6,331 nucleotides of DNA, taken from positions 1 to 6,331 of the forward strand of contig JAUYMQ010000524.1 in assembly GCA_030698575.1 (NCBI GenBank). The letters are read 5' to 3'. Shown here piece by piece: positions 198-6,331 of the stretch. The notes below the pieces were generated by a model, which made no database searches, was not told the DNA's origin, and worked only from the letters and a program-made list of their open reading frames with translations. Positions within the stretch are counted from its first letter, which is position 1. Every line of letters begins with the position of its first letter. Source of the DNA: Deltaproteobacteria bacterium (GTDB taxonomy: Bacteria > JAUYMQ01). Both the position numbers and the translations under genes were made by a program.

Positions 198-1403
198 TCA
201 GTGACTTTGCTCCGCCAGCCAGCGCTCGGCGTCGATGGCCGCCATGCAGCCGGTGCCCGCAGCGGTAACAGCCTGCCGGTAGCGAGGGTCCATTGCATCC
301 CCGCTGGCGAAGACTCCCTCAACGCTGGTGTAGGAGGTCCCACCTTCCACCCGGATATAGCCCACGGGATCCATGTCGAGTTGCCCTTTGAAGAGATCCG
401 TATTGGGCCGGTGCCCGATGGCGACGAACAGCCCCTGGGTCGGGTACTCGGATATTTTGCCTGTCTTCAGATTCTTCAGCTTCGCCCCCGTGACGCCTCC
501 TTCAGGCGTGCCCATCACCTCTTCCACCGCGCTGTCCCAGACGAAGGCGATCTTCTCGTTCTTCATGGCGCGCTCCTGCATGATCTTGCTCGCGCGGAGC
601 TCGCCCCGCCGGTGGACCACGATCACCTTGGTCGCGAATTTGGTGAGGAACAGCGCCTCCTCCATGGCCGTGTCGCCGCCGCCCACGACAACGACTTCCT
701 GTCCACGGAAGAAGAACCCGTCGCAAGTGGCGCAGGCCGAAACCCCGTGCCCCATCAGGCGCTTCTCGCTATCGATTCCCAGCAGCTTGGCCGATGCGCC
801 CGTGGCGATGATGAGGGCGTCGGCCATCAGCCGCCCCTCGTCGCCGATCTCGACGCTGAAGGGGCGTTTCGACAGATCGACCTTTGTCGCGTCTCCCGCG
901 AGCACCCGGGTGCCGAACCGGAGCGCCTGTTTGCGGAACAGTTCCATCATCTCCGGACCCTGAATGCCATCCGGAAAACCGGGATAGTTTTCAACGTCCG
1001 TTGTGATGGTCAGCTGCCCGCCGGGCTGCGACCCTTCGATCACGAACGGCGAGAGTTCCGCCCGGGCCGCGTAGATTGCGGCGGTCCATCCCGCCGGACC
1101 CGTTCCGAGGATGGCCACGCGAACGTGTTCCTCGCGCCGCGCCTTCCTGCTGATTTTCAACATGGGGTCGAGCTTGCCGGAGACGTCGAGCGCGTGGAGC
1201 TCGTCGTAGCCTCCGACGTGAACACCGTCGATGAAGATCTGGGGAATAGTCATGAGCTGCGACCGCGCGATCATCTCATCCTTCTTCTCGGGATGATCGT
1301 GGATGTTGAACTCCTCGAAGGAAACGCCCTTCGATTCGAGCAGCCGCTTGGCGTTCGCGCAGAATGGGCATCCGTAGCCGGTATACATCTCGATGCGTGG
1401 CAT
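198..1403 (-). CDS. glutaredoxin-thioredoxin reductase fusion protein
   Basis: A 401-residue cytoplasmic flavoenzyme expected to pass electrons from NADPH through FAD and a CxxC to a fused glutaredoxin. Residues 1-85 form a glutaredoxin: CPFC at 12-15, the cis-proline motif TIPQIF at 52-57 and GGYDEL at 64-69. After a linker, residues 94-401 are a low-molecular-weight thioredoxin reductase. It shows the FAD-binding GTGPAG at 100-105, PGGQ at 128-131, the redox CATC at 224-227, the NADP-binding [10 protein letters not shown] at 241-250 with HRR at 264-266 (NADPH 2'-phosphate contact), and the FAD motif GVFASGD near 363-369. The frame stays open upstream to an ATG at 1571, but those 56 residues are low-complexity and unlike either domain. 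The ATG at 1403 begins exactly where glutaredoxins do, although its GAGGA lies unusually close, so the start is a family-based choice. The gene is 183 bp from the PLP enzyme gene and is followed by its own terminator. The natural acceptor is unknown: glutathione, a separate thioredoxin or a peroxiredoxin are all possible. Confidence 0.93.
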
Positions 1404-1586: not shown

Positions 1587-2693
1587 TCAGCCCGCGGGCA
1601 GCGCTTCCGACCGCTGCAGAAAAGCCCGGAGGGGCCGTGGCAGGACGCCCGGGTCGAGCGCCCCCTGAAAGGTCGGCAGCGCGATTGAGTTGAACGTGTT
1701 CCAGAAGAGCAGCGGGGCCGATCCACTCCCGCCGCCGTCCCTGCCCATGTGGTCCAGTACCGCAGCCAGCGTCTTGCCAGTATAGATCCCCTCGAGCGCG
1801 ATCCCCGAACCAGCCGCCCGCGCGATGGCCTGTTCCCCCGCCGGCGTCGGATGCCCGTAACCCCTGCCCATCCAGTTGCGAGGCAGGTCGAGGCGCGCGC
1901 GGTCAGCCTTCACGTCGGGGAACGAGGCATCGTGCTTTCGCAAAAAGTTGAGCGTCTGATCAGCGAGAGCACAAACGCGCCGCGCCGAGATCGGCATCAG
2001 ATCGTTCACCACCACCCCGAGGACGCGGCTGCGAAGCGCGGTCAGCGACAGACCCGCCAGAAGTCCCGCAGCCGTCCCCATCGATCCGACTGGCACCGTG
2101 ATGATCTCCGGCTCCGGAAGCGCGCCCTCCTGCACCTGCGCTTCCAGTTCCAGCGCGGCTTCGACGAAACCAACGCACCCGAGCGGTGAGGAGCCCCCCG
2201 GCATGACCAGCAAGGGGCGCTTACGTCCAACGCCGGGCAGGAGCCAGCGCCGCGCTCCGGACAGTGCGGCCCGGGAGGAAGATCCGACGAACTCGACACG
2301 GGCGCCGGTGTCGAGGATCCGCCGGAGGGTCTCCAGCACATGGGGCGTCGGGGGCTGGCCCACGGCGACGAGGATCATCCGGAGCCCGTGCTGCTTGCCG
2401 CACAACGCGACCGCCAGCGCGTGGTGCGATCCGATGGCGCCGAAGGTCAGGACCGTATCGGTTCCCTGTGAAATCGCGTCGGCGAGCAGGAATTCGAGCT
2501 TCCGGGGTTTGTTCCCGCCGTAAACCAGGCCCGCGCGGTCGTCGCGTTTGATCCAGAGTCCGGGGGCGAGGGCATCGAGCGCGTGAACCTCGCTCGGCCG
2601 CCGCAAGAGGGCCAACCGCGGGAGCCGACGCTCCAGTGCGGGATACCGGAGGAAGAGTCCGAACGGCCGGTCCTGCGAGGGTGCGGCGGTCAC
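1587..2693 (-). CDS. PLP-dependent enzyme, ACC deaminase / D-cysteine desulfhydrase family
   Basis: A 368-residue cytoplasmic enzyme of fold-type II PLP proteins. LWIKRDD (46-52) is followed by GLVYGGNKPRKLEFL (55-69), where Lys62 is the expected Schiff-base lysine. TFGAIGSHHA (83-92) takes the place of the family's usual SNH motif. VPVGSMGTAAGL (200-211) is the glycine-rich loop that holds the cofactor phosphate, and IYTGK (303-307) matches the family YTGK. Near the C-terminus, where D-cysteine desulfhydrases and ACC deaminases normally have a HTGG-like motif, this protein reads FWNTFNS (330-336). It is therefore likely a divergent subgroup, and substrate (ACC, D-cysteine or another D-amino acid) cannot be assigned. 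The GTG start at 2693 overlaps the stop of the upstream membrane-protein gene as GTGA. The nearest purine-rich run, GAGGGAG, lies about 20 nt upstream, so translation probably relies on coupling. Confidence 0.85.
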   Translation of the reverse strand: MTAAPSQDRPFGLFLRYPALERRLPRLALLRRPSEVHALDALAPGLWIKRDDRAGLVYGGNKPRKLEFLLADAISQGTDTVLTFGAIGSHHALAVALCGKQHGLRMILVAVGQPPTPHVLETLRRILDTGARVEFVGSSSRAALSGARRWLLPGVGRKRPLLVMPGGSSPLGCVGFVEAALELEAQVQEGALPEPEIITVPVGSMGTAAGLLAGLSLTALRSRVLGVVVNDLMPISARRVCALADQTLNFLRKHDASFPDVKADRARLDLPRNWMGRGYGHPTPAGEQAIARAAGSGIALEGIYTGKTLAAVLDHMGRDGGGSGSAPLLFWNTFNSIALPTFQGALDPGVLPRPLRAFLQRSEALPAG

Positions 2694-3103
2694 GGGCCGA
2701 AGTCCGTCAGTACTCCCTCGGTGAAAACCAGCGTGGCCGGACGCGTATTACCGCCATACTGCCAGTACTCGGTGCCCATCTGCGTGATGGTGAAAACGTT
2801 CTTGGGCTCACCCCAGGCCAGCCGGCATTTCTCGCGATCCCAGCCCTTGACGACCCGGCCGGCCCGGAGATCGATCTTGTCGCTCTCGGAGGTATGAGGG
2901 TGGGAGGCGATGTAGCGCTCGATGTTGTGGGAAAGCCAGAGCTCCTGTAAGGCACCGCCGCTGTTGCGGACCGTGTCGACGGCGAGGAAGAGCACCACCA
3001 TCCCGAGCAGGAGGATGATCCTCCGCACCCAGACCCTCCGGCGACCCGGCTTGGCCCGCCCCGTCAGGGACGGCGCGCCGGGGTATGTGGTCGGCAGCCC
3101 CAT
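2690..3103 (-). CDS. small single-pass membrane protein with BamE/SmpA-like C-terminal domain
   Basis: Not a gene I can name. With the ATG at 3103 it is 137 residues long. A basic N-terminus (RAKPGRRRVWVRR, about 16-28) leads into one hydrophobic segment (IILLLGMVVLFLAV, 29-42), suggesting an inner-membrane anchor with the positive end in the cytoplasm and the rest outside. There is no lipobox cysteine. Residues 77-135 (IDLRAGRVVKGW...LAWGEPKNVF...EYWQYGG...LVFTEGVL) follow the pattern of BamE/SmpA-like domains: a G-x-V-x-x-G turn, a helix ending in W-G-x-P, then a W-x-Y strand and an LVF-x-x-G strand. That assignment is by pattern only. The frame extends 12 codons upstream to a GTG at 3139 with no ribosome binding site; the ATG is preferred because GAGGA sits 6 nt before it. 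It is first in a two-gene unit with the PLP enzyme (4-bp overlap); the pairing does not reveal a function. Confidence 0.75.
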   Translation of the reverse strand: MGLPTTYPGAPSLTGRAKPGRRRVWVRRIILLLGMVVLFLAVDTVRNSGGALQELWLSHNIERYIASHPHTSESDKIDLRAGRVVKGWDREKCRLAWGEPKNVFTITQMGTEYWQYGGNTRPATLVFTEGVLTDFGP

Positions 3104-3109
3104 CGCCAG

Positions 3110-3114
3110 TCCTC
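3110..3114 (-). promoter_or_regulatory. ribosome binding site of the BamE-like membrane protein
   Basis: GAGGA on the minus strand, 6 nt before the ATG at 3103. The alternative GTG start at 3139 has no purine-rich run at the right distance, so this site decides the start in favour of the 137-residue form. Confidence 0.55.
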
Positions 3115-3174
3115 GAGATTTCGCCCGGATTGCGTTCACGCTGCGCTACGTAGATGACGCAGCGGCCTTCAGTC

Positions 3175-3314: not shown

Positions 3315-4997
<1,683 letters not shown>

Positions 4998-5007
4998 TCA
5001 TTTCGCG

Positions 5008-5026
5008 GTCCCGCCGCAGGCGGGAC
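5008..5026 (-). other. perfect hairpin between groES and groEL
   Basis: GTCCCGCC and GGCGGGAC form a perfect 8-bp stem around a 3-nt loop, 25 nt before the groEL start and just outside its GGAGG ribosome binding site. No U-tract follows, so it is unlikely to be an efficient terminator. A processing or mRNA-stability element that adjusts groEL relative to groES is possible. The groESL message of Agrobacterium tumefaciens is known to be cleaved between the two genes, but I have no direct evidence for that here. Confidence 0.5.
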
Positions 5027-5047
5027 GTGTGCAAGAAATCCAGGCTG

Positions 5048-5338
5048 TCAGTCTTCCAGGACGCCCAGTATGTCGCTCTCGTTGAGGATCAGCCGCTCTT
5101 CCCCCTCGACCTTGATCTCGACCCCGGCGTACTTTCCGAAGAGGACCCGGTCGCCCTTCTTCACGTCGAGTGGTTGCAACAAACCGTTCTTCATACGCTT
5201 GCCGGCGCCCACGGCGAGCACCTTTCCTTCCTGAGGCTTCTCCTGCGCCGAATCGGGAATGATGATGCCTCCCTTTGACTTCTCCTCCTGACCGAGTCGC
5301 ATGGCAATGACCCGATCTCCCAGCGGTTTGATCTTCAT
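5048..5338 (-). CDS. groES: 10 kDa co-chaperonin GroES
   Basis: A 96-residue co-chaperonin, the usual family length. Seven copies form the lid that closes the GroEL chamber in the ATP-bound state. The N-terminus [12 protein letters not shown] is the family start. Residues about 16-33 form the mobile loop, with GGIIIPDSA (23-31) carrying the hydrophobic GroEL-contacting tripeptide. [11 protein letters not shown] (39-49) leads into the roof region, [11 protein letters not shown] (62-72) is the conserved beta strand, and the protein ends in [14 protein letters not shown]. The ATG at 5338 has a near-perfect AAGGAGG (5353-5347) 8 nt upstream, which fits high expression. It lies 63 bp after lon and 65 bp before groEL. 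A lone CIRCE-like half-site precedes the ribosome binding site, so HrcA control is possible but not shown. Confidence 0.97.
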
Positions 5339-5355
5339 CTACCGAACCTCCTTGA

Positions 5356-5364
5356 GAGTGCTAG
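5356..5364 (-). promoter_or_regulatory. CIRCE-like half-site upstream of groES
   Basis: On the minus strand CTAGCACTC matches the left arm of the CIRCE operator (TTAGCACTC, bound by HrcA) at 8 of 9 bases. It sits where CIRCE usually lies, just before the groES ribosome binding site. The right arm (GAGTGCTAA, nine bases further on) is absent: that place holds TTCGGTAGA, which runs into the start codon. This could be a decayed operator or chance. I could not identify convincing -35/-10 boxes in the 5339-5401 gap. Confidence 0.3.
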
Positions 5365-5401
5365 TTGTGAGAATCCTGACGCACTGAGTTGATTGTTAGC
5401 G

Positions 5402-6331
5402 TCAGCCTTTGATCGCCGGCTGCGCCCGCTCGGGGGGAGGGGGTAGCACGGCTTCGAAAGCGTCGTCGAGCGAATCCACAAACCGGAACTCGAGATCCCT
5501 CCGTATGGCCTCGGGGACCTCCACCAGATCTTTTTCGTTGTGACGGGGAAGGATGACTGTCTTGACACCTGCTCTCTGCGCCGCCAGGACCTTGTCTCTT
5601 ATCCCGCCCACCGGCAGGACCTTCCCCCGGAGCGTGATTTCGCCCGTCATCGCCACGTCGGGGCGAACGGGCACCCCTCGCAGAAGCGAGAGCAGCGACA
5701 CCGCTATGGTGAGCCCCGCCGAGGGGCCGTCCTTCGGAATACCGCCCGACGGCACGTGCACGTGAAGATCCGAGCCCTCGTAAAAATCTCGCGGGACACC
5801 AAAGCGCTCAGCGTTCGCGCGAATGTAGGAGAGCGCGGCCTCGGCAGACTCTTTCATTACGTCGCCGAGGTTGCCCGTCAACGTGAGGGACTTTCCGCCT
5901 TTCATGCGGGTCGATTCGACAAATAGCACTTCGCCGCCTGAAGGCGTCCAGGCGAGCCCGATGCCCACGCCCGGCTGATCTGTGCGCTCCGAGATCTCCG
6001 AGTAAAATTTCTGAGGACCCAGATGCTCGTGGACGGTGCTCTCGTCCACATTAACCTGCGTGGCGGTTCCCTCCGCGACCTTGCGGGCGACCTTGCGGCA
6101 GACGGTTCCGATCTCTCGCTCCAGATTCCGGAGCCCCGCCTCGCGTGTGTAATCGTGGATCACCATCCCCAGCGCGGTGTCGCTGATCGTCAGATTCTCT
6201 TCCGAGATTCCATTCTCCGCCAGCTGCTTGGGAAGGATGAACCGGCGGGCGATCTGGAGCTTGTCGTCGCTGGTGTAGCCCGGAAGTTCGAGCCCCTCCA
6301 TGCGGTCGCGCAGCGGCGGCGGAATGGTGTG
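5402..6331 (-). CDS. lon: ATP-dependent Lon protease, C-terminal part (5' end beyond the window)
   Basis: The last 309 codons of Lon, open to the right window edge; the N-terminal substrate-binding domain and the Walker motifs are outside. The fragment starts [20 protein letters not shown], the end of the AAA+ core after sensor 1. [12 protein letters not shown] follows, with the sensor-2 arginine in the small alpha-helical domain. The protease domain then carries the catalytic serine in PKDGPSAG (codon 5720-5722) and the catalytic lysine in [10 protein letters not shown] (codon 5591-5593). They are 43 residues apart, as Ser679 and Lys722 are in E. coli Lon. [15 protein letters not shown] lies between them. 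Lon is a cytoplasmic homohexamer that degrades misfolded and some regulatory proteins. The stop is followed after 63 bp by groES, a sensible stress-protein grouping that may share transcription. An ATG at 6301 lies inside the domain and is not a start. Confidence 0.97.

Follow-up and report, generated by a model that had tools for sequence, protein, structure and literature searches.

The 6,331-nucleotide stretch of DNA analysed here (the window) encodes on its minus strand, at positions 198-1403, a single protein in which a glutaredoxin is joined to the N-terminus of a predicted low-Mr thioredoxin reductase (TrxR). We suggest that this protein is probably a bifunctional NADPH flavoenzyme that closes the glutathione cycle in a host with no recognisable glutathione reductase (GR), that is, a low-Mr analogue of the animal thioredoxin-glutathione reductase (TGR). 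The gene is complete, with an ATG at 1403, a stop codon at 200-198 and 401 encoded amino acids, and its limits are exactly those of the original prediction.

Residues 1-83 (1155-1403) constitute a Grx3-type glutaredoxin domain. This part matches Pfam Glutaredoxin over residues 4-63 (E = 8e-21), passes the NCBIfam cut-off for GRX_bact/glutaredoxin 3 (TIGR02181; 102.5 bits against 90) and matches E. coli Grx3 (1fov; E = 1.2e-26). The family motifs CPxC, T-x-P and GG are all present, with T52, P54, G64 and G65 invariant in the fusions, and in the CPFC dithiol at residues 12-15 (1359-1370) C12, P13 and C15 are invariant in eight fused proteins. The protein has G9 where a glutathione-contacting lysine would precede CPxC; this loss was considered as a sign of glutathione independence and set aside, since free-standing Grx3 proteins vary at this site too (K, R, T, W and E). 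The interdomain linker (residues 84-92; 1128-1154) is variable, with 10-50% identity over residues 84-93, and pLDDT falls to 66 in the block 81-90 of the AlphaFold model.

Residues 93-401 (201-1127) match Pfam Pyr_redox_2 (residues 95-385, E = 4e-50), pass the curated NCBIfam cut-off for TrxR (TIGR01292; 383.3 bits against 343.45) and match the mycobacterial TrxR (PDB 5uth; E = 7.6e-109), while structure comparison of the model pairs this part with 5usx_B (Z = 40.7). Both dithiols and the cofactor motifs proved to be as originally described, and most residues of the cofactor motifs are invariant among 40 relatives. In the FAD-binding GTGPAG motif (residues 100-105; 1089-1106) G100 and G102 are invariant and P103-G105 nearly so; C224-C227 are invariant in the redox-active CATC (residues 224-227; 723-734), as are G241-G243 and A246 in the NADPH-binding GGGDTA (residues 241-246; 666-683). 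The HRRGELRA segment (residues 264-271; 591-614), which from established knowledge of low-Mr TrxRs we take to recognise the 2'-phosphate of NADPH, has the form HRR..R over 264-270, with H264, R265, R270 and A271 invariant. The score, the CxxC and the FAD and NADPH motifs all identify the C-terminal part, as far as sequence can tell, as a low-Mr thioredoxin reductase.

The search for the domain pair across genomes, suggested along with the original prediction, revealed nine more copies of the both-domain fusion; they come from seven other genomes and from a plasmid of Ilyobacter polytropus, a cultured species. The domain order is the same in eight other full-length proteins according to alignments or domain scans, and fused proteins with this order come from the distant bacteria G029, G031, G042, G059, G060, G061 and L007/G062, and also from I. 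polytropus. All four genomes searched in the phylum of G042 (G042, G059, G060 and G061) carry the fusion, and G031 has two full fusion genes that differ in sequence as well as one truncated copy (L090, L130 and L131). In targeted searches of the window genome (G000) the fusion is the only TrxR, and the relatives listed for this genome include none closer than 'same domain'; viral contigs contributed only two remote glutaredoxins. The plasmid protein of I. polytropus DSM 2926 (Fusobacteriota) has 401 amino acids, with CPYC at 13-16 and CATC at 225-228, and the distance between the two CxxC motifs along the chain is about constant in all fusions (211-220 residues). The plasmid protein is annotated as trxB only, which is the name that NCBI gives to such fused proteins, and a caution follows that proteins annotated as plain 'trxB' can carry a glutaredoxin. 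In a 113-row TrxR tree the fusions are scattered and need six label changes, of which the well-supported branches force only one, so that the fusion may have had a single origin or several. We also noted an unfused pairing on the plasmids NZ_CP014597.1 and CP155823.1 (Salipiger and Thioclava), where separate trxB, osmC, thioredoxin-domain and grxC genes adjoin one another.

An assembly join and a mis-called start can both be dismissed, because seven other genomes and a named plasmid carry the same fusion. A start after the glutaredoxin is further disfavoured because one relative (L140) has no ATG, GTG or TTG within the 45 codons preceding its FAD motif, and because purifying selection acts on the glutaredoxin part, whose differences to the window are fewer at codon position 2 (0.30-0.34) than at position 3 (0.58-0.83). 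The fusion hence survives the two events named at the outset as able to undo it, translation from beyond the glutaredoxin and a frameshift or assembly error. The window gene does have an in-frame ATG at codon 81, and no strong Shine-Dalgarno sequence was found at the expected spacing from its upstream ATG; nevertheless, the idea that two genes were joined in assembly, or that translation runs from codon 81 without the glutaredoxin, has become extremely improbable. A shorter second product from codon 81 is possible in the window genome alone, and would be minor if made.

The closest layout is that of AhpF, which the original prediction overlooked. Both proteins have a TrxR-like low-Mr C-terminal part and an N-terminal relay of the thioredoxin fold, whereas AhpF carries a tandem pair of such folds and delivers electrons to AhpC, and the fusion has a single true Grx3 domain. 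The AlphaFold model of the fusion is good inside the domains, with a mean pLDDT of 89 and a pTM of 0.71, and was built on very little glutaredoxin coverage. VIA-align places model residues 3-401 on residues 120-520 of E. coli AhpF (4o5q; 384 residues aligned), in rows which, like those of Foldseek, mostly reflect the reductase domain, and the rmsd of 13.2 may be read as a different domain arrangement. The offset at the N-terminus is 117, so that CPFC 12-15 lands at AhpF 129-132, and in the model the glutaredoxin appears to occupy the place of the AhpF relay thioredoxin fold. The AhpF N-terminal domain attached to E. coli TrxR reportedly yields an active chimera, which implies that a low-Mr TrxR is able to feed a redoxin tethered to its N-terminus. 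The ahpF gene usually lies beside ahpC, and no ahpC is found in the window. Membership of the AhpF family was rejected: the fusion scores 203.4 bits against a TIGR03140 cut-off of 502.9, and its reductase is preceded by 92 residues with one glutaredoxin domain instead of about 200 residues with two tandem thioredoxin folds. In AhpF itself, the N-terminal cysteines pass electrons from the TrxR-like domain to AhpC (PMC8945050). Given this layout and the conserved motifs, direct transfer from CATC to CPFC, as first proposed, seems plausible.

Animal TGR resembles the fusion in having an N-terminal dithiol glutaredoxin on an NADPH flavoreductase, and in both cases NADPH is probably linked to thioredoxin as well as to GSSG. 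The animal enzyme, however, is built on a GR-like reductase of the high-Mr class whose C-terminal redox tail usually contains selenocysteine, while the fusion has a tail-less low-Mr TrxR. Accordingly, the high-Mr dimerisation domain PF02852, a part of TGR (TIGR01438), has no match in the fusion, and the protein ends in ...RWLAEQSH without a GC(U/C)G tail; TGR was thus rejected as its family. The view that the two architectures are convergent, on different reductases, is upheld, and the fusion probably works like both AhpF and TGR. NTRC and other TrxR-thioredoxin fusions likewise join a low-Mr TrxR to its own redoxin, but there the redoxin is a C-terminal thioredoxin, and nothing follows the reductase here. 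A protein of that opposite kind was observed in G047 (L111), where a TrxR bears about 145 extra residues with a C-terminal thioredoxin domain (CGPC).

In itself the architecture is no novelty, since Alves et al. listed fusions of glutaredoxin and pyridine nucleotide disulfide oxidoreductase from bacteria, archaea and eukaryotes in 2009 (PMC2679010), a precedent that the original prediction had likewise passed over. Those entries combine a CPYC-class glutaredoxin and the oxidoreductase in one chain, as does the protein described here; in the passages of that survey consulted, no mechanism or host context is given and low-Mr TrxR is not clearly separated from high-Mr TGR. The open-access literature yielded no biochemical work on a bacterial Grx-TrxR fusion. 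The fusion is real and conserved, and apparently uncharacterised.

The thiol context of the host bears on what the fusion may do. In the window genome, glutathione synthesis is represented by a GshA of the PF08886 family with GshB directly after it (C554), and by a second GshB-like gene on C187; no gshA of PF04262 was found, and for PF04107 this genome gives a weak and remote match of 29 bits. The uncommon PF08886 GshA is present in six of the eight fusion genomes (G000, G029, G042, G059, G060 and G061) and in none of 14 control genomes; G031 and G062 have none, and G029 has no match to gshB (PF02955). On C187 (L164, 1794-4166), a gene of the PF08014 microtubule-associated tyrosine carboxypeptidase family (E = 1e-84) is directly followed by the second glutathione-synthetase-like ATP-grasp gene, making a bacterial pair whose role is unassigned.

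The glutaredoxin family of the window genome further comprises a monothiol CGFS glutaredoxin (C104), a degenerate homologue that lacks the dithiol (C138), and matches that are GST-type domains or frames of thiol proteins of other kinds, with no second recognisable dithiol glutaredoxin among them. A separate thioredoxin with WCGPC is encoded on C44, so that gshA, gshB and trxA, the genes the original prediction had asked about, are all present. The high-Mr reductases of this genome are a dihydrolipoyl dehydrogenase and an NF004991 FAD oxidoreductase; both were scored and neither is a GR over the cut-off, in an assembly that is 91.6% complete and from which a GR could therefore be missing. No GR was identified in the seven other fusion-carrying genomes either, in a survey confined to the eight genomes that carry the fusion. 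There the high-Mr reductases are of the Lpd, transhydrogenase, NF004991 or MerA type, apart from one very short fragment in G031 that falls outside the classification. The NF004991 oxidoreductases, of unassigned function, occur in three fusion hosts.

It was originally proposed that the fusion might replace a separate thioredoxin or GR. The first half of this proposal falls because the genome encodes its own WCGPC thioredoxin; the second is the better supported because gshA and gshB are present and no GR equivalog was found, and we infer that replacement of GR is the better reading of the two. The relay would begin with hydride transfer from NADPH to the FAD of the TrxR part, which would then reduce CATC. 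From there, electrons would pass in an AhpF-like manner to CPFC in the attached glutaredoxin, either within one subunit or across to its partner, and the reduced glutaredoxin would act on GSSG, glutathionylated proteins and other disulfides. This path is suggested by the layout and the conserved motifs, and the separate thioredoxin is probably still served by the reductase part. In a host that has genes for glutathione synthesis and no recognisable GR, the fusion would most likely close the glutathione cycle.

A precedent for such a relay is known from the cyanobacterium Synechocystis, a glutathione-containing bacterium without GR, where NTR is reported to reduce the dithiol glutaredoxins GrxA and GrxB (PMC3816324). 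The proteins are separate in that organism, in contrast to the fusion, and whether the substrates of NTR are the glutaredoxins or TrxA is called controversial (PMC3816324). It is also conceivable, though we consider it unlikely, that each domain works on its own, the reductase serving the separate thioredoxin and the glutaredoxin being reduced by glutathione, with the fusion fixing only stoichiometry or location. The presence of both the WCGPC thioredoxin and the glutathione synthesis genes is in line with this, as is the variable linker. Turnover of a glutathione-driven glutaredoxin requires GSSG reduction, however, and no GR was found; moreover, the layout fits that of AhpF, whose N-terminal dithiol is fed internally.

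The genes adjoining the fusion lie on the same strand. At 1587-2693 is a PLP-dependent enzyme of the D-cysteine desulfhydrase/ACC deaminase group (PF00291), under every specific NCBIfam cut-off, which may have a role in thiol metabolism. Next to it, at 2690-3139, is a gene for a 149-residue protein that has a single hydrophobic stretch in its N-terminal part and matches nothing in Pfam or NCBIfam, and the region 3315-6331 upstream of the fusion holds groEL, groES and the C-terminal part of lon, a stress-protein neighbourhood.

These neighbours also touch on another reading, in which the fusion would chiefly supply electrons to a single client of its own (for example a peroxiredoxin, a ribonucleotide reductase or a methionine sulfoxide reductase) and would not be an enzyme of the glutathione cycle. 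An AhpF-like layout could be taken this way, AhpF being dedicated to AhpC, and the NTR-glutaredoxin pathway of Synechocystis feeds ferredoxin 7 (PMC10295655). Yet no client gene occurs in the window, where the neighbours are instead the PLP enzyme, the small protein, groEL-groES and lon, and we regard a private donor as improbable, more so than independent domains.

Replacement of GR is the part of the proposal worth testing. It offers a testable answer to how GSSG is recycled in glutathione-making bacteria without a recognisable GR, and the fusion provides a single-chain case of the TrxR-glutaredoxin relay, which is a matter of dispute in systems of separate proteins. More tentatively, and with more doubt than confidence on our side, this low-Mr counterpart of TGR might be the standard replacement of GR in lineages that make glutathione with the PF08886-type GshA, having arisen independently of animals. 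If this is true, the joining of a glutaredoxin to a TrxR would be the way in which bacteria, on their own and apart from the animal lineage, came to recycle GSSG.
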